Virus record (IMG/VR): IMGVR_UViG_3300037068_000040
Location: 1-46,188 of that record
Length of the DNA: 46,188 nt
Source of the DNA: a virus
Reading direction: 5' to 3' (one strand)
Under the pieces are notes generated by a model. The model searched no databases. It had not been told where the DNA came from and saw only the letters and a program-made list of their open reading frames with translations. Shown here in pieces: positions 24,459-44,601 of this stretch. Made by a program: the position numbers and the translations under genes. Positions within the stretch are counted from its first letter, which is position 1. Each line of letters opens with the position of its first letter.

Positions 24459-24472
24459 GTGAGCTAGCTCAC
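24459..24472. promoter_or_regulatory. 14-bp perfect palindrome at the operon boundary
   Basis: GTGAGCTAGCTCAC is a perfect palindrome spanning the stop codon of the ParB-methyltransferase gene, 65 bases before the next leftward start. A TATAAC-like element (minus strand, 24443-24451) and a GATACT element (minus strand, about 24416-24421) follow, so an internal promoter with an operator is possible. Neither has a clear -35 partner. Confidence 0.4.
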
Positions 24473-25950
24473 TGCTTCCGGAGCACGAGCAGATCCTCCG
24501 AGATGCCAGCGGAGTTCATCTGGCCTTTGCTCGAGCCGCCCACGTCGACCTTGCCGCGGGATTCAATGAGTGCGTTCGCGCTCTGCGCGATGCGAACTGC
24601 ATCGTCTGCGATCGCGTGCTTCCCTGCGTCCGATACGTTCAGCACGAACGCGCAGCCGGGCTTGAGCGCTTCGAGCGTCTTGCAGATGAGCGACGCGAGG
24701 AAGTTGTCGCGCCACTCTTCGTACGTCTTGTAACGGATGCAGCTCTGCTCGCTGTCGTCGGAATACTGTTCGACGTCGAAGTACGGCGGCGACGTGAACG
24801 CGAAGTCGAATGACGCTGGCTCAAGCTTCACGTCTTCGAACGCGCTGTGCCGGATCGTTGCGCGCTCGATGTTCAGGTCGCCGATCATCCGCGCGAAGCT
24901 CGCGCATGTCTGCGCGGATGCGTCCACGCCGAAGTAATGGCCGTCGTGAAGCGAGCAGAGCCAGCCGAGCAAGCGCCCGCCCCACCCAGCGCACGGGTCG
25001 AGCACGCGGGCGTGTTCGACGGAATACTCTCGGAAGATGTCGCGAGCGACATCGATCGGGAACTGCCGCGCGCACTGTCGGCCGCGATAGATGAGTAGAA
25101 CGGAAAGCAGGGCAGCGCGAAGCGGATGCTGGCCTTGCTCCGCGGAGACACGCGCTGCACCTGCGATGGCCTCTGCGCTTGCAAGTGACTCGTTCGGAGT
25201 CATCGGAGACTTGCCGGCCTTCACATCGTAGCGGTGCGGGAACCACCGATCGGCAATCCCGATGCGCGGGCGCCCGCCGGCGGCGCAGCGGTTCAACTCG
25301 ACCATCACGTCGCCCACGCTCAAAGCGAAGTCGCTGTAACTCATTCCGAGCAGACAGCGCGCTTGCGTGAGCGCGACCGTCTCGAGGTCGAACACGTCGA
25401 AGCGCGCTTCATCCGCGCTCGCAGCTTCCTCGCCGAGCTCGGTGGCGTCTTGCTCTCCGAACAGTGTGCCGAACTTGTTGAGGTCCGCGTCGCTCCAGCC
25501 TGCGAGTTCGAGCTCTTCGAGCTTGAAGTCTGCGAGCACAGCGCCCAGCGCTTCTGACCACTGGGTGAGCTCTGCGATGCGATTGTCTGCGAGCGCGAGC
25601 AGGTGCGCTTCGCGCTTCGAGATGTCGAGATAGCGCACGGGCACGCGTTCGAGCTCCATCGCTTGCGCTGCTTTGAAGCGTGCGTGTCCTGCGATGATCT
25701 CGCCGTCCGCTTTGCGTGCGAGGATCGGCGCGCCCCAGCCAAAGCGCTTGATCGATCTCATGACGCGCTCGACCGGCTCGCCATCGTTGTCGCGTGGATT
25801 GTCCGGCCAGAGTCTCAAGCGCGAGAGCGCGACCCACTCGGCCGCTGGCTCGCTCTGCTTCGCGCTCTGCTTCGCGCTCTGCTTCGCGGATGACTTCACT
25901 GCGCGCGGACGAGCGCGCTCTTTGTCCAGTTTCTTGGCGGATGCTTTCAT
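24469..25950 (-). CDS. ParB-like domain fused to a DNA methyltransferase
   Basis: A 493-residue protein from ATG 25950. Residues 1-35 are Lys/Ala/Ser-rich with a threefold AKQS repeat. Residues 38-135 are a ParB/sulfiredoxin-like domain with LRLWPDNPRDND and the GHARFKAAQ motif (88-96). After a linker of about 170 residues comes an AdoMet-dependent methyltransferase: motif I VLDPCAGWGGRLLG (316-329) and motif IV TSPPYFD (386-392), the SPPY class usual for N4-cytosine and some N6-adenine enzymes. It likely methylates phage DNA against restriction. No clear ribosome site is seen before the start; the frame is open further upstream to 26073. Confidence 0.85.
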   Translation of the reverse strand: MKASAKKLDKERARPRAVKSSAKQSAKQSAKQSEPAAEWVALSRLRLWPDNPRDNDGEPVERVMRSIKRFGWGAPILARKADGEIIAGHARFKAAQAMELERVPVRYLDISKREAHLLALADNRIAELTQWSEALGAVLADFKLEELELAGWSDADLNKFGTLFGEQDATELGEEAASADEARFDVFDLETVALTQARCLLGMSYSDFALSVGDVMVELNRCAAGGRPRIGIADRWFPHRYDVKAGKSPMTPNESLASAEAIAGAARVSAEQGQHPLRAALLSVLLIYRGRQCARQFPIDVARDIFREYSVEHARVLDPCAGWGGRLLGWLCSLHDGHYFGVDASAQTCASFARMIGDLNIERATIRHSAFEDVKLEPASFDFAFTSPPYFDVEQYSDDSEQSCIRYKTYEEWRDNFLASLICKTLEALKPGCAFVLNVSDAGKHAIADDAVRIAQSANALIESRGKVDVGGSSKGQMNSAGISEDLLVLRKQ

Positions 25951-26171
25951 CGCGCAAGCGTGCCGCAGTGCGCGCGCGCAGTCGATTGTGCAGCGCTTGC
26001 TGCGCGGGTAAGAGTAGGCGGTCCCCCGCTGACTGGTGGAACTCGCAACGTTTGCGGCTGTGGCCTCGGTCACGCTGCAGCGTCGCCACCGGGCGGGGGA
26101 TGTTCTTGCCGCTGGAACTCGCAGCGCACTAATCCCAAGCGCATCCGCTCGCGCTCGCGGAGAGTGTCCCG

Positions 26172-26441: not shown

Positions 26442-26478
26442 TTGACGTTCTGTAAATGCTCCATCATACTAAATGGAG
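26442..26478 (+). promoter_or_regulatory. Sigma70-type promoter with overlapping dyad, driving the integrase operon
   Basis: TTGACG (26442-26447) and CATACT (26465-26470) are separated by exactly 17 bases, a good match to the -35/-10 consensus. The -10 is flanked by the inverted repeat CTCCAT (26459-26464) and ATGGAG (26473-26478), which would place a bound repressor directly on the -10. The leader to the first start at 26527 would be about 50 bases. Confidence 0.6.
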
Positions 26479-26526
26479 AGAGCAGCACACGAGACGCTGC
26501 TCGGAAGAACGAAGGAAGAAGCACAG

Positions 26527-26874
26527 ATGTCGACACACACCCACGCACTTATCCGGATGATCGAAGCGCACAACGCGAGCGAGCTTCCCGTCAACGTGAC
26601 TCGCATCACGATGCGCACGTTCGCAAACGGAACTCTCGCGATCGATGGGAGCTTGAGCGAAGTCACGAGCGCGCTTACTGCGATGCTCTCTCGCGCTGTC
26701 GGCCTGACTGCGGATGATGTCGTCGACATCGAACTCGCGTTGAGCGAGACGAAAGTCACGCTCGCAGGGATGAATCGCGTTGTCTCGTTCCCGCACGTTG
26801 CACGCGCTTGCGGACGCTGCGATCGCTGTCTGTTCGGGGAGCGCTGCGAACTCGTCTCGAAGGAGAACGTATGA
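26527..26874 (+). CDS. Hypothetical protein with C-terminal Cys cluster
   Basis: A 115-residue protein. ATG 26527 is preferred over an upstream in-frame ATG at 26473 because AAGGAAGAAG precedes it and because 26473 lies within the predicted transcription start. The body is alpha/beta (NVTRITMRTFANGTLAIDGSLSEVTSALTAMLS...) and the end has CGRCDRCLFGERC, four Cys of a likely zinc site. It overlaps the next gene by four bases. First gene of the integrase operon; role unknown. Confidence 0.68.
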   Translation: MSTHTHALIRMIEAHNASELPVNVTRITMRTFANGTLAIDGSLSEVTSALTAMLSRAVGLTADDVVDIELALSETKVTLAGMNRVVSFPHVARACGRCDRCLFGERCELVSKENV

Positions 26875-27251
26875 CACGCACTCTCTGGACGACACGCGGA
26901 GCGCGCAGCGGAAGCTGCGGACACGAACACAAGACGATGCGCGAAGCGTTCGATTGCTGCTCCGCGGAATGGGAAGCAGCGGAGCAGCGTCTAGTGCGCA
27001 GCGATCGCGACGTGCGTCCCATCGGACGCGAACTTACACACGCTGAATGCATCGCGCTCGATGCGATGATCTCCGCGCACGCAAAAAAGCAATGGATTGT
27101 GATGTGCGTCCCCGGACGCTCGGACGCGGACGCGTCCAGCTACTTTGCTTTCGACACGGAGACGCGACGCTCCGTTAGCGCGCGCTCTCGCGAAGACGCT
27201 GAACGTATCTGTAAGACACGGAACACATCAACAAAAGGAAACGGAAACTGA
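26871..27251 (+). CDS. Hypothetical protein, integrase operon
   Basis: A 126-residue protein beginning at ATG 26871 within the previous stop (ATGA), with AAGGAG upstream. The N-terminal part has CGHEHKTMREAFDCCSAEW, a possible Cys/His metal site. The C-terminal half is Arg/Ser/Thr-rich beta-like sequence. It ends three bases before the integrase start. I see no excisionase-type HTH, so its part in integration is unclear. Confidence 0.65.
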   Translation: MTRTLWTTRGARSGSCGHEHKTMREAFDCCSAEWEAAEQRLVRSDRDVRPIGRELTHAECIALDAMISAHAKKQWIVMCVPGRSDADASSYFAFDTETRRSVSARSREDAERICKTRNTSTKGNGN

Positions 27252-30442: not shown

Positions 30443-30816
30443 CGTCCGTTCTCCGATCCGAGTAGCTGTAAGACTGCGTCTCGTGTGATGAGTAGCCGGC
30501 CGTGGTCGCCGTGCTGGCTCGCTGTCAGCTTGCCGTCTTCGATCCATTTACGGAGCGTCTTCGCGCTCACCTTCAGCACGTTACGAACTTGTCGCGCTGT
30601 CAGCACAGGCGGAAGCGCGCGCGCGATCGAGCGCAAGTGCACGGGCAGACCCGCAGCGGGGTCGGCCTGGCCGTGCTCTGTCTGCATCTTCACGCGCTCG
30701 CGTTCGAGTTCTGTGCGCGTTCGCTCGAGGTCGTGACGCTCTCGCGTTTCCGCTTCCGATAACAACTGCCGGAGCGTCGCGACTGACAGCGCGTTGACGT
30801 CAATGCAGCCTTCCAT
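30439..30816 (-). CDS. Excisionase-like / MerR-type HTH protein
   Basis: A 125-residue protein. Residues 15-50 are a charged coiled coil and residues 70-118 a winged helix of the excisionase/AlpA type (LTARQVRNVLKVSAKTLRKWIEDGKL, then HGRLLITRDAVLQLL). It could help excision or regulate early genes. It starts inside the end of the RecD-like gene (17-base overlap) and is co-transcribed with it. Distance from int (over 2 kb, opposite strand) leaves an Xis role open. Confidence 0.78.
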   Translation of the reverse strand: MEGCIDVNALSVATLRQLLSEAETRERHDLERTRTELERERVKMQTEHGQADPAAGLPVHLRSIARALPPVLTARQVRNVLKVSAKTLRKWIEDGKLTASQHGDHGRLLITRDAVLQLLGSENGR

Positions 30817-33127
30817 GTGCGGCCTCCGTGGCGAGTTCGAGTTCGAGCTGCTTCACGTTCATGCGGTCGACGAGGCGCGTGAAGCGTTGCTTGTCCGCTG
30901 TGTTCGCGATCGCTTGACGCACAGCGTCAGTTGTTCCGATGAGGATCACGCCTTTCTTGGCACGCGTGACCGCTGTGTAGAACAACCGCCGAGTGGTCAT
31001 GTGATGCGAGTGATGGCAGACAACGATGACCCAGTCGTATTCACTGCCCTGCGCTTTGTGCACAGTGAAGCAGTAAGCGAGCTCCAGATCTTTCTTCGCT
31101 TGCAGGACGCTGTAGCTATGCACCTTGCGCTCGTTGTCGCCGTCGATCTCGCCCACGAACAACTCCGTAACCTCGTCTTTGTCATTCGTTTCGATGTGGA
31201 CGACGCGGCCCGTGTCGCCGTTGACCAGGCCGCGGGATGAATCGTTGTGCCTGATCATCACTTTCGACCGCAGGCGCAGCTCCGCGTGTGCGGAGATCTC
31301 GACCCGCGCGGGCGCTTCCGGATTGATTGGGTTGAGCGTGTCGTGAAGAACAGCGTTGAGGGCGATGACGCCCGCTGGGCCTTTGTGCTGCGGGCTCAGC
31401 GCTGCGACGCTGACCTTGGTGATCCACGATGTCTCATCGCGCACGAAGAGATCGCGCAGCGCGCCGGGAATGGCGGACGCGTTGCGGCATTCGATGAGCA
31501 TGAAGTCTTCCTCCTGCTCCGGCGGAGGCGGCTCGCCCGGCGCGCGCTCTCGCGGCTTGAATGCGAGCGCGGGCATGTGGCCGGCCAGAATGACTGGCGC
31601 ATTCACTGCGATCCATGAGTCAGCCGCAGAGCGATGCAGTTGCGTGAGTCGCGTAACAGGGATGTGTCCGCTCTTGATGAGGTCGCTGAACGGCTGGCCC
31701 GCTCCGACCGGCGGCAGCTGATTCACGTCTCCGATCAAACGCAAGCGCGCATGCCCGAGCCGCTTGATCACCTGCGCCATGAGCATCGCGTCGATCATCG
31801 AAGCTTCATCGATGAAGACGAAACGCGCCTCGGTGCGCGGCCCTTCCGAGACCCCAGTGCCGTAGAACCATGCGTCGGACGGTCGGATCTTGAAGAGCGA
31901 GTGAAGCGTGACAGCATCACGGCTCGTCGCCTTGCTCATCCGCTTCGCAGCTTTGCCCGTGGGCGCAGCTAGGACATAGCTCGCCCCGACTTCATCGAGC
32001 GCATCGAGCGCAGCGCGGAGCACGCTCGTCTTGCCCGTGCCGGGGCCGCCTGTCGTTATCGCGATGCGCGTGCGCTCGCTTATCATGCGCTGCGCTGCAA
32101 GCGTCTGGCTGCAATCGAGTTCGAATTCCTCGGAATACATCTCCATCCGCCAGTGGTAGTTCCTGCACTGCGGGCAGCCCCCGTCCGAAGTCGACATCTC
32201 GAACGGCACATCGTCATCTTCCGGCGTCGGGTGATGCTCCATCGCGTAACTCGCGATGGTCGTCTCTGCGCTGTGCAGTGCAGTCAGATACACATACTTC
32301 TGTTCATCGAGCACGACGCGCTTGCGCTCGATGAGTGCGTCCAGCGCAGGCTTGAGCTGCGAGACGTAGTCGAGCTTGTGTTCGCCGCAGATCCATTCGA
32401 GCAGTTCGCGCTCGCCGTACATGTGGCCTTCGTTCTCCGCTGCTTCCTTGAGCGTGAAGAGCACGAGCGCTTCGACCCTGCACGGGTGGTCGTTCGGGAT
32501 GCCCATCTTGGCGCGGATCTCGTCCGCGGTCTTGAAGCCGATCCGCTCGATGCGATACGCGAGTTCGTATGGGTCGCAGCGGATTGCCTCGAGCGCTTCC
32601 GGCAGCGTCGTCCACTCTTCTTTGCAGCGCTTGATCTGCAGCGGCGTCAGCCCCCAGCCGCGCAGCGCTGCGCGATGGCCGGCCCCGTCGGCGTCTTCAT
32701 CCACTACATCGTGGATGCGCTGCGCGAGCTCCGCGCTAATGCCCGCTTCGCATAGCTGCTCGTGCTCGTGAAGGATCGTGTGCCAGAACGCTTGCACGTC
32801 TTGCGCGAAGTGCTGCGCGAGGCGCTGCGCCGTGACCTCGCCGACCCCCTCGACTGCATCGCGCAGATACGTCACGAGCCCATGCATCGAAGCGGGGCAG
32901 CAGCATTCGTAGTCGCTCACATCGAACTGCTCGCCCCAGCGGGCGTGCACAGTGAAGCGACCTTCGAGCACGACGCCGACGCCGGGACGGGGCAAGTGAT
33001 AGCCCTGCAGCTTCACTTCGCGCCCGTCCGCAATGCGCAGCCAAGCGATGTGCCAGCCGCTGTCGGCGGCGGGTTCGTCCTTCCATCGGGAGATCTCGCC
33101 GCTGAGCTTTTCGCTTGGCTGCGTCAT
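30800..33127 (-). CDS. RecD2-like superfamily 1 DNA helicase
   Basis: A 775-residue helicase. The N-terminal 80 residues form a small beta domain and residues 85-220 hold tandem helix-hairpin-helix-like parts (VEGVGEVTAQRLAQHF, YRIERIGFKTADEIRAKMG), as in RecD2. A CPQC pair lies at 318-321. Helicase motifs: Walker A GGPGTGKT (360-367), Walker B FVFIDEAS (436-443), motif III GDVNQLPPVG (466-475), and near the end HKAQGSEYDWV (690-700) and YTAVTRAKKGV (717-727). It probably unwinds 5'-to-3' in phage recombination or replication restart. Preceded by GGGAG and only two bases after the upstream gene. Confidence 0.92.
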   Translation of the reverse strand: MTQPSEKLSGEISRWKDEPAADSGWHIAWLRIADGREVKLQGYHLPRPGVGVVLEGRFTVHARWGEQFDVSDYECCCPASMHGLVTYLRDAVEGVGEVTAQRLAQHFAQDVQAFWHTILHEHEQLCEAGISAELAQRIHDVVDEDADGAGHRAALRGWGLTPLQIKRCKEEWTTLPEALEAIRCDPYELAYRIERIGFKTADEIRAKMGIPNDHPCRVEALVLFTLKEAAENEGHMYGERELLEWICGEHKLDYVSQLKPALDALIERKRVVLDEQKYVYLTALHSAETTIASYAMEHHPTPEDDDVPFEMSTSDGGCPQCRNYHWRMEMYSEEFELDCSQTLAAQRMISERTRIAITTGGPGTGKTSVLRAALDALDEVGASYVLAAPTGKAAKRMSKATSRDAVTLHSLFKIRPSDAWFYGTGVSEGPRTEARFVFIDEASMIDAMLMAQVIKRLGHARLRLIGDVNQLPPVGAGQPFSDLIKSGHIPVTRLTQLHRSAADSWIAVNAPVILAGHMPALAFKPRERAPGEPPPPEQEEDFMLIECRNASAIPGALRDLFVRDETSWITKVSVAALSPQHKGPAGVIALNAVLHDTLNPINPEAPARVEISAHAELRLRSKVMIRHNDSSRGLVNGDTGRVVHIETNDKDEVTELFVGEIDGDNERKVHSYSVLQAKKDLELAYCFTVHKAQGSEYDWVIVVCHHSHHMTTRRLFYTAVTRAKKGVILIGTTDAVRQAIANTADKQRFTRLVDRMNVKQLELELATEAAHGRLH

Positions 33128-35658: not shown

Positions 35659-36195
35659 ATGCACACCGCAGAGAGCTTGTATGGGATCTTCGAGCCGCTA
35701 CTACAGACCAAGCGCTTGCCCGTGAATGGCTGGGATTTCATCCGGCTGCACTGCTCGCGTGTCATCTGCGTCTCGCGGGCAGGGATGAAGCCGGGGCTGC
35801 ACGAGAACCGCGACGCGGAAGATGATGAGCATCGCTGGTCGCTGCGCTTCGACGCACGCGATAGCTACCCGCAACGCAATCGCGCAGCCATCCGCGGAGC
35901 GATTCATATCCTCTTGCACGACCGCTTCGGCATCTCGCTCAAAGACATACCCAGCGAAGCGCTCGCGGAGCTTGAGCTTCGACTCGAAGTGCTCATGCTC
36001 GGCGACGGCTCTTATGTGCCGTTCGCGGAGCTCTGCGACACGACGCCATCACTTGCGCTTGCGCGTGCTCTGCCCCTTCCCGTTGCTCGCGTGCGATTCA
36101 TCCGACCCAAGCACCCGAGCGAGAGACATCTCGAACGCCACGCTATCGCCCTCGCCAAGATGCATGGCGTACTCCGCGCAGAACTCGGCCATTAG
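35659..36195 (+). CDS. Hypothetical protein, converging on the repressor gene
   Basis: A 178-residue protein with GGGAGGG upstream of the ATG. Residues 1-130 look like a real globular protein: MHTAESLYGIFEPLLQTKRL, then RNRAAIRGAIHILLHDRFGISLKDIPSEALAELELRLEVLML. The last 49 codons run through the antisense of the repressor 3' end (147-base overlap), which is unusually long. The position next to the repressor is where temperate phages often keep exclusion or superinfection genes, but nothing in the sequence shows this. Confidence 0.55.
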   Translation: MHTAESLYGIFEPLLQTKRLPVNGWDFIRLHCSRVICVSRAGMKPGLHENRDAEDDEHRWSLRFDARDSYPQRNRAAIRGAIHILLHDRFGISLKDIPSEALAELELRLEVLMLGDGSYVPFAELCDTTPSLALARALPLPVARVRFIRPKHPSERHLERHAIALAKMHGVLRAELGH

Positions 36196-36609
36196 GTCTT
36201 CGTTCACCGCGAAGAGAGCAAGCTCCTTCCGATCAAGCGCGCGGGTGAGCGCCCCGCGGACCTTGTTCGGGATGAGTTGACGGTCGAGATACGCGCGCTG
36301 CTCTTCCGTGCTGAGGCTCATGCCGTTCGACTTGCCGTTCACAGGCGCGGGCGCTGCAGCGTCCAGCCCGAACACGAGTTGGTCGAGCGTGAAGCCCGTG
36401 AGCTTCGCAATCTTCACGAGCGGCTCGAGCCCGATGTCTTGCTCGCCGCTGAGCCATCGCTTGAGGCTCGTCCAGTGCACCCCGAGTGTCTTCGCGAATG
36501 TTGCGTGCGTATACCCGCGAGCAAGCATGCATGCGTGGATGCGGTTGTGTCGCTCCTTCTCCGCGAGCGGGTTGGCGATGTTCAGATTCGACGGCGCTGC
36601 TTTCGTCAT
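36049..36609 (-). CDS. Putative lysogeny repressor (HTH, non-LexA type)
   Basis: A 186-residue protein. ATG 36609 is chosen since GAGG lies six bases upstream; the frame is open to 36681. Residues about 20-75 are a Cro/CI HTH (MLARGYTHATFAKTLGVHWTSLKRWLSGEQDIGLEPLVKIAKLTGF). The rest is helical (TEEQRAYLDRQLIPNKVRGALTRALDRKEL) with a basic tail, and has no S24 peptidase serine/lysine pair or Ala-Gly cleavage site. It diverges from a Cro-like gene across a 229-base operator region, the layout of an immunity switch. Confidence 0.78.
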   Translation of the reverse strand: MTKAAPSNLNIANPLAEKERHNRIHACMLARGYTHATFAKTLGVHWTSLKRWLSGEQDIGLEPLVKIAKLTGFTLDQLVFGLDAAAPAPVNGKSNGMSLSTEEQRAYLDRQLIPNKVRGALTRALDRKELALFAVNEDLMAEFCAEYAMHLGEGDSVAFEMSLARVLGSDESHASNGKGQSTRKRK

Positions 36610-36838
36610 ATGAGCCTCATTGAACGCATCGGAGGTTCGCTTTGCAACCGGGATATATCCCATCGATGGCACATTTAGCATCTTCTGAGTACCTTTGAGC
36701 AGTAGGCGCTGCGCGCATCAGGTGCGCAATCAACCCTAGGGATAGGGTGTTTCCTGGCTACACGAGAGCGCGCAGTGTCCGACGCGCCACTGGGATTGTC
36801 TTGCAGGACACTCGCGCCCGGGTGTATCCCCGGCTGCC
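36610..36838. promoter_or_regulatory. Immunity control region with several dyads
   Basis: Between repressor and Cro-like gene lie: the perfect palindrome GGGATATATCCC (36650-36661), ACCCTA-GGGA-TAGGGT (36733-36748), and AGTGTCC...GGACACT (36774-36780 and 36806-36812, 25-base spacer). These are candidate operators. GGGATATATCCC lies about 40 bases upstream of the repressor start, where its -10 would be expected. Confidence 0.6.
36801..36830 (+). promoter_or_regulatory. Possible promoter of the Cro-like gene, near-leaderless
   Basis: TTGCAG (36801-36806) and TATCCC (36825-36830) are 18 bases apart. The -10-like element ends eight bases before the ATG at 36839, so a transcript from here would start at or next to the start codon. 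No ribosome-binding sequence precedes the ATG, consistent with a leaderless message. The -35 half overlaps the right arm of the AGTGTCC/GGACACT dyad. Confidence 0.4.
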
Positions 36839-37639: not shown

Positions 37640-40255
37640 GTGCGTGAAGAAGACTTGATCCCATGGGACACGCAAGATCTCTCGCAGCCGTGGCAGCCTC
37701 CGCGTCCGCTCGAGCGGATGGGAGTCGGCAAACCTGATCCGCTATTCGATGACTTGACCGTGGCGTCCGCGCTCGAGGTCGCGCTGCTCAATGAAGCGCG
37801 GATCACGATCGTGCGCCATCACAAGTACATCGCGAAAATGCTCGGATGGAAGGGCTTCTCCGGCGAAGCTGCGATCGTCTTCCCGATGTTCGAGCCCGGC
37901 GCGCTGCACCCGTACGGGTTCCGCTTCAAGCCCCAAGCGCCACGACTGCGCAAGCGCGGCGACAAGTTCGACAAGATCAAATACGAGCAGCCCGCCGACA
38001 CGGGCATCTTCGTGTACTTCACGCCGCGCGCATCGCGTGACGGCGGGTACATGAACCTCGAGCGGCCGCTCGTGTGGGTCGAGGGTGAGAAGAAGGCGCT
38101 CGCAGCGGAGCAGTGCGGCTTCGTTCCGCTCGGCCTAACGGGCGTCGACAACTGGCACGACAAGCCCGCGAAGGCCGCGCACGAAGGCACGAAGCTGCAC
38201 GCGATGGCCGTGAAGCACTGCGCGATCGCTGGGCGCAGGCACATCATCTGCTTCGACGCCGACGCACGCGACAAGCCGCAAGTGATGAGTGCAGCGCAGC
38301 GCCTCGCCGGCGCGCTGCTCGCAGCGGGCGCGCGCGAAGTGCTCTTCTGCTGCCCGCCGGACATGAACGCGAAAGGGCTCGATGACTATCTCGCCGCCCA
38401 CGGCCCCGACGCTGTGCGCGCTCTCATCGCGAGCGCGGGCCCGATCGAAGCGACCGAACCGAAGCAGGCCTCGCTGCGAGTGCGCGACTGCTTCGACAAG
38501 TCGTGCCCGCTGCGACCCGCGCTGCTCGTGCCGGACGGGTACTCGTTCAATCGCAACGCGCTCTGCAAGGTCGAGATGGTCAAGGGCGACGACGGCTGGG
38601 CGGAGGAAGAAGTGCCGTACTTCCCTAGCTGCATCGTCATCACGCGTCGCTTCATGGACCTCGAGACACGCGACCAGTCGGCCGAGGTGACATTCAGAGA
38701 CCCGGACGGCACGTGGCGCAACTGCATCCTGACACGCGACAAGACCGGCAACCGCACGCTCTCAGACGCTCTGCGCTTGCAGGGCGCGCGGGTAACCATG
38801 CTGAACAACGGCAAGCTGACCGAGTGGCTTGATGAGTTCGAAGCATTCAACGCGAGCGCGCTCAAGCTCGAATGGCTCGCAGAGCGCGCGGGCTGGTTCG
38901 AACTGAACGGCGAGTGGCACTTCGTGTGCGGCAGCGATCTGCGCTTCGAGAGTTGTTCAGATGTTATCCACCGCTCCGACACGCACGAGCGCGCGTTCGC
39001 AGCGCTGGGCATGCGCGAGGGTGCGCGGCTCGCGGACCATCTCGCAGCGCTCAAGCGCGCATGGGAAGCGAGCGACGACTGCGCGCTCATGATAGCGGGC
39101 GCGCTCGCTGCTCCGCTGCTCAAGGCGCTCGGTGCGGCGAACTTCGCGCTTCATCTGTGCGGCGACACTTCACGCGGGAAGACTTCGATGCTGCGGATCG
39201 CTGCGAGCATCTACGGCGACCCGCGCAACCAGCAGTGGGTCGCTCCGTGGCTTGGCACGCTCACTGCGACCGAGCTCCGCGCCCAGTTCTACTGCGATCT
39301 CCCGCTCTGCTTCGATGAGTCGGGCACGGTCGACCCCGAGTTCATGGCCCGAGCGGTCTACATGCTCGTGAACGGCGAGGGCCGCCCGCGCGGCACCAAA
39401 GAGCTGCACATGCGCCCGACAGCGCAGTGGCGGACCGTGGTCTTGTCCACAGGCGAGGTCGAACTCGCGAGCGAAGACGCCATGGGCGGGCAGCAGGTGC
39501 GCGTCATCAGTGTGCCTATCACGGGCTTCGGCACGCTCGATGCTGCGGGCGTCGACGACCTGCGCGACGCATGCGCCGACAATGCGGGCGCAGTCGGCGA
39601 GCTCTGGCTGCGCGCGCTCACGGAAGGCAACGAAGACGACCGCGCGGAGTGGCGCGCGGACTATCGAACGCTGCTCGCAGAGCTGCGCGCCATTGCGGGC
39701 GGCAACTCTACGCTCGCTCGAACCGCGATGAGCTTCGCAGTGATGGCGCTCGCAGCGCAGGGCGCGCGCAGCGAGTTCGGCCTCGGCTCGAGCCAGACCA
39801 TCGTCGACATCTTCCGCAAGCGCTGCGAGACCTCCAACGGCGTGCGCCCGATGCATGAGCGGGTCGTCGATGCGCTGAACGAGTGGGTCATGAGCAACCC
39901 GCGGACGTTCCCGATCACCACGAAGCAGCTAAACGGCATGCGCACGGCAGCCGTGCACGATGGCGTAGTCGTGAACGGCTACCGCTTGGAAGACACGGGC
40001 CTCGTCGCGTTCGCGCCGCGCAAGCTCCGCGAAGAACTCGCTCGCTGTGGTCTGCCGTGGACGAAAGCGGTGTGCGACCAGTTGGTCGACCTCGGGCGAC
40101 TCAAGCGAGAGAAGAACGACGTTGAAACGCGGCTCCGCGTCAACGGCAGGCGCGAGCGGCTGTATCAGCTCCAGCTTGCGGAGGGTGGGACGGGTGACCC
40201 GTGGGTGGGCCAGGACACCCGTCCCAGCGAATCCGACCCAAAATCATACAGTTAG
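37640..40255 (+). CDS. Primase-helicase: TOPRIM-like (DUF3854) plus DUF927-type ATPase
   Basis: An 871-residue replication protein. The N-terminal part has a TOPRIM-like fold with Glu149 in VWVEGEKKALAAEQCGF and CFDADA (204-209), then LFCCPPDMNAKGLDDYL, as in DUF3854. The C-terminal part has the DUF927 ATPase pattern: HLCGDTSRGKTSML with Walker A Lys514, and Walker B LPLCFDE (554-560). It likely primes and unwinds phage DNA. The start is GTG 37640 after CGGGGG; an internal ATG at 37718 is the alternative. Its last codons already contain copies of the iteron found downstream. Confidence 0.87.
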   Translation: MREEDLIPWDTQDLSQPWQPPRPLERMGVGKPDPLFDDLTVASALEVALLNEARITIVRHHKYIAKMLGWKGFSGEAAIVFPMFEPGALHPYGFRFKPQAPRLRKRGDKFDKIKYEQPADTGIFVYFTPRASRDGGYMNLERPLVWVEGEKKALAAEQCGFVPLGLTGVDNWHDKPAKAAHEGTKLHAMAVKHCAIAGRRHIICFDADARDKPQVMSAAQRLAGALLAAGAREVLFCCPPDMNAKGLDDYLAAHGPDAVRALIASAGPIEATEPKQASLRVRDCFDKSCPLRPALLVPDGYSFNRNALCKVEMVKGDDGWAEEEVPYFPSCIVITRRFMDLETRDQSAEVTFRDPDGTWRNCILTRDKTGNRTLSDALRLQGARVTMLNNGKLTEWLDEFEAFNASALKLEWLAERAGWFELNGEWHFVCGSDLRFESCSDVIHRSDTHERAFAALGMREGARLADHLAALKRAWEASDDCALMIAGALAAPLLKALGAANFALHLCGDTSRGKTSMLRIAASIYGDPRNQQWVAPWLGTLTATELRAQFYCDLPLCFDESGTVDPEFMARAVYMLVNGEGRPRGTKELHMRPTAQWRTVVLSTGEVELASEDAMGGQQVRVISVPITGFGTLDAAGVDDLRDACADNAGAVGELWLRALTEGNEDDRAEWRADYRTLLAELRAIAGGNSTLARTAMSFAVMALAAQGARSEFGLGSSQTIVDIFRKRCETSNGVRPMHERVVDALNEWVMSNPRTFPITTKQLNGMRTAAVHDGVVVNGYRLEDTGLVAFAPRKLREELARCGLPWTKAVCDQLVDLGRLKREKNDVETRLRVNGRRERLYQLQLAEGGTGDPWVGQDTRPSESDPKSYS

Positions 40256-40402
40256 CTTCGGTGGGACGGGTGGGACGGCTGGGCCAGGGGTTCATGCACG
40301 CCATACGAGAAATGAAAATTGGAATTGGAGATCTAGCCAATGCAGGTGGTGTGACTTGTCGGCACACGGTGAACCGCGCGCGCGCACACGAGAGCAAAAC
40401 CA

Positions 40403-40429
40403 ACCCGTCCCACCCGTCCCACCCGTCCC
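40403..40429. repeat. Three tandem ACCCGTCCC iterons
   Basis: Three uninterrupted, identical 9-base units, ACCCGTCCC, are followed by AGCGATTAGCG and the CT tract. They are the complement of the GGGACGGGT units on the other side of the AT-rich core, so the array is symmetric around it. Confidence 0.85.
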
Positions 40430-40460
40430 AGCGATTAGCGCTCTCTCTCTCTCTCTCTTC

Positions 40461-40518
40461 TAACTATATGAATAAACCTAACTATATCTATCTAACAGAT
40501 GCAGCTAAAAGCTGCATC
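40461..40518. other. AT-rich unwinding element and hairpin
   Basis: About 40 bases of very AT-rich sequence, with TAACTATAT at 40461-40469 and again at 40479-40487, are followed by GATGCAGCT-AAA-AGCTGCATC (40498-40518), a perfect 9-bp-arm hairpin. In this GC-rich genome the AT content stands out sharply. Confidence 0.7.
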
Positions 40519-40562
40519 GCTGGGACGGCGCTGGGACGGGTGGGACGGATTGGGCGGTCCGG

Positions 40563-41153
40563 ATGAAGCGCAAGCCGCGAAAGTGGACCGCAGATCGCGC
40601 TCTGCTGCCGGGGTTCGCGCCCGCAGTCGCCGTCCCGCCACCCGTCCCACCCCCCGTCCCGGCCCCCGTCCCGGCGGATGACGGCGCGGAACGTGAGCGC
40701 ATGAGCTCACGTTCGCTCGACCCACTGGAGTACTTCGCGCCGCTGGAGCTCGCAGTGCACGAGGTGAGCGGCTTCCCTGCTCTTCTGCTCCCCGATCTGC
40801 CCGCGCCGTGGCTGTTGCTCGCGGAGAGTCTGCCGGCCGTCCACGGGGCTGCAGAGCGCATCCGCTTCGCGTTCGCGAGCAGCGCCGACTTCTATCGCTC
40901 CGCGCGGGCGCTGGGCCTGCCCACGTTCAATGCATCCGAGTGGGCCACGTTCGCGCTCGCTGCAGAACTCGAACGTGTGAGCTACCCCACCACTGCGCGC
41001 TGGCTCGCTCGCAAGACAGCTGAGCCCGACCTGCTCTTCACACCCGAGCGCTGCATCGGGGTCGAACCCAGCCAGCCCGACCGCCGATCTCTCTCAGTGG
41101 GTCAGGTCATGACCTGCATTGGCTGTCGACTAGTCAAAGCGGAGAGCGCGTGA
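40563..41153 (+). CDS. Hypothetical protein, N-terminal Pro/Val repeats encoded by iterons
   Basis: A 196-residue protein. Residues 22-40 (AVAVPPPVPPPVPAPVPADD) are encoded by complementary iterons, so the origin extends into the gene. The rest is a globular alpha-helical domain (ALGLPTFNASEWATFALAAELERVSYPTTARWLARK) ending in a CIGC pair. It overlaps the resolvase gene by four bases. No family is recognised. Position next to the origin suggests a replication accessory role, as inference only. Confidence 0.66.
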   Translation: MKRKPRKWTADRALLPGFAPAVAVPPPVPPPVPAPVPADDGAERERMSSRSLDPLEYFAPLELAVHEVSGFPALLLPDLPAPWLLLAESLPAVHGAAERIRFAFASSADFYRSARALGLPTFNASEWATFALAAELERVSYPTTARWLARKTAEPDLLFTPERCIGVEPSQPDRRSLSVGQVMTCIGCRLVKAESA

Positions 41154-42650: not shown

Positions 42651-43034
42651 ATGATCAAGCGCGACTCACTCACGCAAGCGTTTCGCAACGGATGGGCCGA
42701 TCGCTACCAGTTTGGTCTGCTTCGCGTGGAGCAACTCTACGCGGACCCGCTGCGCGGCAGTCGCGCCGCGTGGCGCGTCGGCTGGGACCTCGCGCACGTG
42801 CTCTGTCTCATCATGGGGCGCCCGTTGCGTAACTCGCGTCGCCGCAGCCACGGCTCGCATCCGCTTCCGCATGTGACCCCGACCGTGGACGAGGTCAATG
42901 CGTACATCGATGGGCACGGGTCCGGACCTGCATACGATCCGCTCGCCCGCGGGCGACGTCGCAATCGCATCATCGCTGCAGTGCTGCTCGTGCTCGCGCT
43001 CTTCTGCGCGCGCTGGGTCGTGAGGCACCCATGA
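42651..43034 (+). CDS. Small protein with one C-terminal membrane segment
   Basis: A 127-residue protein. ATG 42651 is preferred because of the strong AAGGAG before it. Residues 1-55 are helical (QAFRNGWADRYQFGLLRVEQLYADPLRGSRAAWRVGWDLAHVL). The end is RRRNRIIAAVLLVLALFCARWVVRHP, a basic stretch and a single membrane helix, so the body probably lies in the cytoplasm. It overlaps the PLP enzyme gene by four bases. Confidence 0.62.
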   Translation: MIKRDSLTQAFRNGWADRYQFGLLRVEQLYADPLRGSRAAWRVGWDLAHVLCLIMGRPLRNSRRRSHGSHPLPHVTPTVDEVNAYIDGHGSGPAYDPLARGRRRNRIIAAVLLVLALFCARWVVRHP

Positions 43035-43933
43035 TTGTCTGCACGTCGGTCGACGCGCTCACTCCATGCGAGCAGCACGATGGCACTTGGTACAAGCGCG
43101 ATGATCTCTTCGTGCCGTTCGCCGACGTGCCGCTCTCGGGCGGCAAGGTGCGTCAAGCGATGGCGCTGCTCAAGCCGAAGGCGATGGAGATCCGCAGGCG
43201 CGGCGGCGTCGTGCTCACTGCTACGGGCGTGCACTCGCCCCAGGGGTTGATCATCGCTCGCGTCGCTCACGAGTATGGCCTGCGTACGGTCATCTTCGTG
43301 GGCGCGACGAGTGAAGCGCGCGCGCTGCGCCATCCGATGCTGAAGACGGCGATGCGCTTCAATGCGTCGCTCGATTGCAGCGCGCGCGTTGCATACGAGA
43401 GCGCGTTCACGAAGCAGATCGAGCGCTGGCGCGCCGTCCATCGCGGCGGCTTTCACGTGAAGTTCGGGATCAATCTACGCGACGCTCCGGATGCGATACT
43501 CGGGTCGACTGCAGAGCAAGCGCGGAACGTGCCCGCTGAGGTCACTACTGTCGTGGTTCCCGTGGGCGCGGGTATAACTGCGGCCGGGATCTTGCTCGGC
43601 CTGAAGAAGCACTGCCCGCAAGTGCAGCGCGTCGTCCTAGTGCAGATCGCTGGATATGACCGCAGAGCGGAGATCGATGCAGTCGCATGCGGACTGCGAT
43701 ACGACTATCACGCTATCAGTCGCTATCCGTACGGACACGAGTTGCGTCGCAGCGTCGCGAACACGTTCGTACTTGATCCCATCTACGAAGCGAAGGCACA
43801 TCAGTACATGTGCGAAGTGCTTCGACTACACGGACCGACTGTTCTCTATTGGATCATCGGAGACTCCAGTGCAGTGCGCACTGCGAGCGCACGTGTAGGT
43901 TCGTTCCCATCTCGACTAGAGCGCGCGCCATAA
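43031..43933 (+). CDS. PLP-dependent enzyme, ACC deaminase / D-cysteine desulfhydrase fold type II
   Basis: A 300-residue protein. WYKRDDLF...PLSGGKVRQA gives the likely PLP lysine Lys39, in a shortened form of the 'GNKxRK' motif of fold-type II enzymes. TVVVPVGAGITAAGILLGLKKH fits the phosphate-binding glycine loop. It is shorter than typical cellular enzymes (about 330 residues). Substrate is unknown. It could act on an amino acid used to modify DNA bases, or alter host metabolism. Located directly upstream of the MT-A70 methyltransferase. Confidence 0.8.
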   Translation: MIVCTSVDALTPCEQHDGTWYKRDDLFVPFADVPLSGGKVRQAMALLKPKAMEIRRRGGVVLTATGVHSPQGLIIARVAHEYGLRTVIFVGATSEARALRHPMLKTAMRFNASLDCSARVAYESAFTKQIERWRAVHRGGFHVKFGINLRDAPDAILGSTAEQARNVPAEVTTVVVPVGAGITAAGILLGLKKHCPQVQRVVLVQIAGYDRRAEIDAVACGLRYDYHAISRYPYGHELRRSVANTFVLDPIYEAKAHQYMCEVLRLHGPTVLYWIIGDSSAVRTASARVGSFPSRLERAP

Positions 43934-44046
43934 CGATGGAGCGCAGGCCCCATCTCAACAGTGGTGGGGATGGCGAACCCCGCTGGAGCTGCACCGTCCG
44001 ATTCGATCGTTTTCCCCGCGAAAATCAAACGAATGCGACTCGACAA

Positions 44047-44601
44047 ATGAGCAAGCCTCGATCAAGCGAACCTGCACGCGTACTAGTCGCAGATCCTCCA
44101 TGGAAGTTCGGGGACAAGCTTCCCGGACGTGGACGCGGAGCTGCGAAGCATTACGCGTGTCTTACAACTGCGGAGATCTGCGCGTTCGAGCTTCCGCCGC
44201 TGCATCCGGATGGAGCGCTGCTCTTTCTCTGGCGCGTCGCTGCGATGCAGCAAGATGCGCTCGATGTCGTCGAAGCGTGGGGTTTCAAAGTGAAAGCGGA
44301 GCTTGTGTGGGTGAAGCAGACCTCGACCGGCAAAGCGCTGCACTTCGGAATGGGACGCTACACTCGCGCAGCGCACGAGACGTGTTTGATCGCAGTGCGC
44401 GGACGAGCGAGCGTGCGTGTGCACGACCAGCGTTCGATCTTCTTCGCGCCTGTCGGTCGACACAGCGCGAAGCCGGATGCGTTCTATTGGATAACGATGC
44501 GACTCGCTGCCGGACCATACGCGGAGCTCTTCGCGCGGCGACGTCGCGCAGGCTGGCGCTGCTTCGGCAACGAACTCGCTCCGCAGCGAAAGGCAGGCTG
44601 A
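44047..44601 (+). CDS. MT-A70 family adenine-N6 DNA methyltransferase
   Basis: A 184-residue protein. VLVADPPWKFGDK carries the DPPW catalytic motif (16-19), followed by GALLFLWRVAAMQQDALDVVEAWGFKVKAELVWVK and HETCLIAVRG, the usual MT-A70 order with the AdoMet site near the C-terminal FGNELAP. It likely methylates adenine in phage DNA, protecting it from host restriction. The start is uncertain: ATG 44047 fits the family, ATG 43936 is the alternative, and neither has a clear ribosome site. The 113 bases before it hold no other gene. Confidence 0.87.
   Translation: MSKPRSSEPARVLVADPPWKFGDKLPGRGRGAAKHYACLTTAEICAFELPPLHPDGALLFLWRVAAMQQDALDVVEAWGFKVKAELVWVKQTSTGKALHFGMGRYTRAAHETCLIAVRGRASVRVHDQRSIFFAPVGRHSAKPDAFYWITMRLAAGPYAELFARRRRAGWRCFGNELAPQRKAG

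Follow-up and report, generated by a model that had tools for sequence, protein, structure and literature searches.

An iteron array behind a primase-helicase gene as a probable SaPI/PICI-type replication origin in a complete temperate myophage

An array of short repeats that begins in the end of a primase-helicase gene and continues into the following gene raises two questions, namely what the array does and which protein reads it. The window analyzed here, i.e. the whole 46,188-nucleotide stretch of the IMG/VR record IMGVR_UViG_3300037068_000040, is the genome of a phage called W below, and L-numbers denote the other viral loci compared with it. An earlier note, made from the letters alone, proposed a likely replication origin with the primase-helicase as the first candidate for its binding protein. 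Both proposals gained support: in relatives the gene, the position, the layout and the AT core are all retained and the units change together, the pattern to be expected of an iteron origin, and the units covary with the C-terminal winged helix of the primase-helicase, which points to this protein as the probable binder. By computation we establish the anatomy of the array, its conservation, the concerted change of its units and their coupling to the winged helix. It is very probable, by analogy with known systems, that the array is a replication origin at which this winged helix would bind the units, so that the enzyme would melt the core, load itself and prime. We conclude that in this array a complete phage carries a self-loading-helicase origin of the SaPI/PICI type, for which we infer the binding and the origin activity.

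The array and the genome that carries it

A repeat of 127 bases is common to both ends of the window, as would fit a genome of about 46.06 kb that is circular or terminally redundant. The genes of W include those for terminase, portal, protease, capsid, tail sheath, tape measure, baseplate and integrase, which mark it as a temperate phage of 46 kb with a contractile tail (myophage). Elsewhere in the genome, a pyridoxal-phosphate-dependent enzyme gene (PALP; 43031-43933, plus strand) is also found in the L067 genome and has no match in that of L005, and its 3' end is overlapped by a gene for an MT-A70-type DNA adenine methyltransferase (43810-44601, plus strand). The features of the locus are as follows.

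37640-40255, plus strand: primase-helicase with DUF3854 (Toprim-like), DUF927 (MCM-like AAA+) and a C-terminal winged helix (Pfam, PHROG 8841, PDB)
39977-40183, plus strand: C-terminal winged-helix domain, residues 780-848, proposed iteron reader (AF2 model, HTH_56, covariation)
40064-40090, plus strand: predicted recognition helix, residues 809-817, in which 809, 812, 813 and 816 vary among sisters with different iterons
40186-40194, plus strand: iteron TGGGACGGG inside the helicase gene (exact-site search; changes in concert among sisters)
40218-40226, minus strand: iteron TGGGACGGG inside the helicase gene (exact-site search; changes in concert among sisters)
40262-40279, plus strand: two tandem iterons with a 9-bp period; L067 has a third unit TGGGACCAC here
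40404-40430, minus strand: three tandem iterons left of the core (exact-site search; concerted change)
40441-40458, plus strand: CT tract beside the core, kept in W, L005 and L067
40459-40500, no strand: AT-rich core, 42 bp, 76% AT, probable unwinding element (base composition)
40461-40469 and 40479-40487: two copies of TAACTATAT in the AT core
40498-40518, no strand: perfect hairpin GATGCAGCT-AAA-AGCTGCATC, kept in L005, absent in L067
40521-40549, plus strand: three iterons right of the core (40521, 40532, 40541), the first degenerate in L005 and L067
40630-40673, minus strand: four units resembling the iteron, of which one is exact, translated as Pro/Val (AVAVPPPVPPPVPAPVPADD) within the 40563 gene
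40563-41153, plus strand: downstream gene without family match, which does not track the iteron (Pfam, PHROG, W/L005 comparison)

The exact TGGGACGG occurs at 12 sites window-wide, 11 of which fall within 464 bp at 40186-40649 in both orientations; dinucleotide shuffles contain on average 1.0 and at the largest 4 exact sites per whole window. The former count of at least a dozen units in the array, where 11 are exact, holds only if units with one mismatch are included, and there are four of these (at 40233, 40630, 40654 and 40666). Along the plus strand the order is one forward, one reverse, two forward and three reverse units, the AT core, and then three forward units and one reverse. The inversion of units on the two sides of the AT-rich stretch is thus confirmed (minus strand at 40404-40430, plus strand at 40521-40549), the triplets flanking the core on the left and on the right are both directed outward from it, and the spacing inside the unit sets is mostly a 9-bp tandem. 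The array starts 70 nt 5' of the helicase stop codon (stop at 40255), with two units inside the primase-helicase gene. The two TAACTATAT copies, the CT tract and the AT core are all present where they had been described, and the core is 76% AT against a genome of 63% GC. The hairpin has a perfect stem of 9 bp and a loop of 3 nt (z = -5.3). A GC-skew change at the array, suggested earlier as a check, gave no signal in three sister genomes and is uninformative: in W and two sister genomes the GC/AT skew amplitude did not exceed that of block permutations, and the minimum did not lie at the array.

Concerted change of the units among sister phages

An origin was expected to keep its repeats in relatives, and three sister phages, whose helicases are 92% (L005), 81% (L067) and 75% (L144) identical to that of W, do keep arrays, together with the gene order and the position and layout of the array. 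The unit is TGGGACGGG in W, TGGGACTGG in L005, TGGGACCAC in L067 and TGAGACCAC in L144, all units of a phage being altered alike. Between W and L005, position 7 differs in 11 of 11 units (10 of them G to T), while 36 of the 512 remaining bases differ, 3 of 88 at other unit positions and 33 of 424 outside the units (Fisher, position 7 against other bases, 1e-12). Since W, L005 and L067 have the same AT core over all 42 bp, the units were altered singly within a conserved frame and not by block replacement; the core of L144 has diverged, yet is AT-rich. A search for relatives through the AT core returned just the known sisters and chance AT-rich matches.

The same sisters separate the constant parts of the array from the variable ones. 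The perfect hairpin is present in W as the earlier note described, and it was rejected as an essential part of the origin because it is absent in L067. The run of the array from the helicase gene end into the next gene, where units are read as Pro/Val, is likewise real in W, and the coding units were rejected as essential because they are deleted in L067 and missing in L144. Judged from these genomes, the hairpin is optional and the Pro/Val units likewise are no conserved part of the origin. What is added here to the earlier note is the concerted change of specificity, the match to SaPIbov1 Rep and Cch set out below, and the finding that hairpin and coding units are not conserved.

The winged helix and the units

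The primase-helicase has 871 residues and matches DUF927 at E 1.5e-35 (Pfam); DUF3854 and DUF927 are the only Pfam families matched by the gene adjoining the array, and PHROG 8841 (primase/helicase) matches its product too. Its closest solved relatives by sequence are 8tch (E 2.6e-17), deposited as a pathogenicity-island protein, and 5dgk, the SCCmec Cch. For residues 440-871, an AF2 model from an alignment of 43 sequences (mean pLDDT 85) was used in place of one from 5 sequences (pLDDT 37), and the best PDB folds for it in Foldseek are again 8tch (E 5e-15), described there as the initiator of SaPIbov1 replication, with helicase activity, and 5dgk (E 1e-14). The predicted winged helix consists of helices 793-802 and 809-817 and strands 829-834 and 837-844, an order HH-EE over residues 793-844 with block pLDDT 83-93. 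The family HTH_56 ('Cch helix turn helix') matches W below threshold (E 8e-4, 19.9 bits vs a Pfam cutoff of 26.2), and it matches relatives with E down to 4.5e-17, among them 17 of the 43 proteins in the alignment (E up to 0.01).

Changes between the helicases of W and L005 concentrate in this domain, with 9 of 28 residues in 805-832 changed vs 4 of 329 in the AAA+ region 462-790. Among them K809S, C812H, D813S and V816A have the spacing i, i+3, i+4, i+7, and lie on one face of the predicted recognition helix (AF2). The residues at 809, 812, 813 and 816 are H, Q, S and I in L067 and P, Q, Q and H in L144. These two phages have in common Q812, the wing EGRHFA and the unit suffix CAC, and differ at 809, 813 and 816 and at unit position 3. 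From four sequences we put forward an assignment of residues to bases as a hypothesis. The most divergent part of the helicase between W and L005, residues 326-410 in the N-terminal stretch of DUF927, was rejected as the unit reader because its alleles do not follow the unit. Two divergent alleles exist there, one shared by W and L067 and the other by L005 and L144, and this crosswise distribution suggests recombination.

At the family level, a scan for DUF927 helicases yielded 80 viral loci, and at 66 of them (redundant loci included) one 8-mer occurs at least five times within an 800-base stretch about the helicase stop codon, the arrays usually beginning about 20-30 nt 3' of this stop. Units in annotated phages are GGTAACCGA in THSA-485A, TAGGTGAAAC in FP_Epona, GGGGAACAG in phiAH14b and TGAACCAAC in Klebsiella P12620-1, and the SaPI-like PT1028 record has GGGAACT; no clear array was seen at some DUF927 relatives, e.g. 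Rollin, L201 and L231. For 47 non-redundant DUF927 helicases, compared in the 250 pairs whose AAA+ cores have an identity of 0.6 or more, the similarity of the iterons tracks winged-helix identity once core identity is removed (partial r 0.76, peak 0.82 at the wing), against 0.03 for AAA+ core identity and a maximum of 0.41 for any window in 300 label permutations. A joint model of core, linker, winged helix and downstream DNA puts weight on the winged helix only (beta 0.90, 0 of 1000 permutations), and R2 falls from 0.66 to 0.28 when the winged helix is dropped, figures to be read with the non-independence of helicase pairs, since permutation handles kinship only in part. Single pairs illustrate the relation: L214 and L237, with an identical core, agree in 44% of the winged helix and differ in their units, while L217 and L235 have the same unit at 74% identity of the core and 79% of the winged helix. 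This covariation strongly supports the view that the initiator binds its own iterons via its C-terminal domain. Cassette exchange of adjacent DNA could be behind part of it at the family level; a simple block swap is excluded by the series of W, L005 and L067. As an observation in its own right, L214 compared with L235 and L237, and L220 compared with L228, combine AAA+ cores 97-100% identical with winged helices 30-44% identical and with different iterons, and these PICI-sized contigs look like natural domain swaps.

Arrays of this kind reach beyond DUF927. Three tandem TGGGACNNN units occur in at least 120 stretches, with 40 bidirectional arrays among the matches listed, and once the loci collected earlier and the window are added to these matches, 39 of 49 bidirectional arrays are no more than 250 nt away from a large ORF's 3' end. 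The helicases beside the arrays examined include VapE-like, DUF5906, DUF3987, AAA_25 or DUF927 proteins (Pfam). The control hexamer CAGGGT gave 10 bidirectional arrays in 120 vs 40 in 120 for TGGGAC, again among the matches listed, so that TGGGAC is common, not unique; it was rejected as a universal core, CAGGGT arrays being found behind DUF5906 primase-helicases as well. Iteron origins behind primase-helicases thus look general, with TGGGAC as one frequent unit. Bidirectional TGGGAC arrays stand beside VapE-like, DUF5906/D5, DUF3987 and AAA_25 primase-helicases in L006, L019, L026, L029, L075, L076, L093 and others; many extend into the 3' end of the helicase gene, and the unit is common to several helicase families.

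Other functions and other binding proteins can be weighed against these data. The array might be an operator whose units are bound by a repressor or regulator of the early operon while replication starts elsewhere, for operators can be arrays between genes and an HTH_3 (Cro/CI-like) protein is encoded at 36049-36681; that protein, however, is about 98% identical between W and L005 while all units changed, the units track the winged helix of the helicase itself, and such an array follows the helicase gene in many unrelated phages and satellites, which together make an operator very improbable. A partition site (centromere) bound by a phage ParB-like protein is extremely improbable. Centromeres can be inverted short repeats, and at 24469-26073 (minus strand) W encodes a ParB-like domain fused to a DNA methyltransferase-like region, but this product is 96% identical between the two phages in which every unit differs, its gene lies some 14 kb from the array, and arrays of the same kind stand beside the helicase gene in PICI-sized contigs.

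It is, further, highly improbable that the array is an origin whose units are bound by the 40563 product, the RecD-like protein, the 26469-26930 product or a host factor, with the winged helix binding elsewhere. The RecD-like protein (68% identity) and the 26469-26930 product (45%) also differ strongly between W and L005. The earlier suggestion of the 40563 product as binder, however, is disfavoured by its 94% identity, and near-constancy means that neither it nor the 36049 and ParB-like proteins follow the units; no DNA-binding family was found by Pfam or PHROG in the 40563 or 26469-26930 products; and over the 47 loci it is the winged helix, and neither the linker nor the downstream DNA, that accounts for the similarity of the units. 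The RecD/exonuclease V-like helicase gene (30800-33127, minus strand) is 68-69% identical between W and both sisters, with neighbours 94-97% identical in L005, and is probably a swapped module.

Proposed mechanism and known systems

Reading by the primase-helicase remains the preferred explanation. The protein encoded just upstream would bind the TGGGACGGG units through its C-terminal winged helix, helix 809-817 reading the unit's TGGGAC-type core, with the suffix read or supported by the wing (about 820-845). Copies of the helicase would assemble on the inverted unit sets flanking the AT core, melt it and load themselves as hexamers, one per strand, after which the fused Toprim-like domain would prime and the forks would be bidirectional. 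All of these steps, from physical binding and melting to hexamer loading, priming and the bidirectional forks, are proposed here by analogy with SaPI Rep. More tentatively, phages may re-specify their origins by first altering the winged helix slightly and then converting all 9-11 inverted units in concert, each time by a single base or a three-base suffix, making close relatives separate replicon groups and perhaps escaping satellites or nucleases that exploit the origin. If so, replicon groups would resemble plasmid incompatibility groups, and the four sisters would be a natural series for a recognition code (812 and the wing for positions 7-9; 809, 813 and 816 for position 3). As close initiator-origin pairs with different units, the sisters make recognition rules and incompatibility groups directly testable.

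In an incomplete literature search, no earlier report was found of the winged-helix/iteron link in the DUF927 family or of such a sister series, nor a paper joining the W unit with 'iteron' and 'primase'; the point-by-point sister series and the statistical link in this family thus appear to be new. Phage P4 alpha is a primase-helicase whose own C-terminal domain recognizes origin repeats, with a different helicase family and different repeats from those of W. The SCCmec Cch (5dgk) is a DUF927 homologue with HTH_56 as in W, unlike W without a fused primase. In SCCmec Cch2 the C-terminal domain binds direct repeats just 3' of its gene, but the helicase is of another family and the putative origin has only three AAGTG iterons. 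In the Vibrio cholerae PLE, the DNA-binding domain of RepA and the iterons covary, only cognate pairs replicate, and the selective force proposed there is a phage nuclease directed at the origin (PMC8263062). This covariation with an otherwise conserved initiator is like that of W, whereas RepA itself is unrelated (RepA_N at the N-terminus, no helicase) and its iterons are semi-palindromes of about 30 bp; an origin of this type was rejected for W, whose adjacent gene is DUF3854/DUF927 only and whose units are 9 bp.

The closest counterparts are found in satellites. SaPI Rep recognizes through its C-terminal domain an iteron origin directly 3' of its gene, apparently as two hexamers (PMC7581432). 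SaPIbov1 Rep of the S. aureus pathogenicity island (8tch) shares with W a homologous MCM-like AAA+ helicase with a C-terminal DNA-binding domain, and the SaPIbov1 origin shares iterons directly 3' of the gene in inverted sets around an AT-rich region; it differs in belonging to a satellite with a separate primase of the AEP family. In PICI origins an AT-rich region always lies between two sets of iterons, a layout described by the authors as occurring in no other known bacterial replicon (PMC6092414). The pri-rep-ori of Gram-negative PICIs resembles W in having these two sets 3' of rep, and pri and rep are sometimes fused, as in the primase-helicase of W. W itself was ruled out as a PICI by its full virion gene set, integrase and 46 kb, for PICIs are helper-dependent satellites without the full virion gene set, whereas W is a complete temperate myophage. 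A layout described as unique to satellites is present in such a phage, and behind DUF927 helicases it is seen again in many phages and in contigs of PICI size. The kind of origin is known, namely the SaPI/PICI self-loading-helicase origin, and W is a member of it outside satellites.
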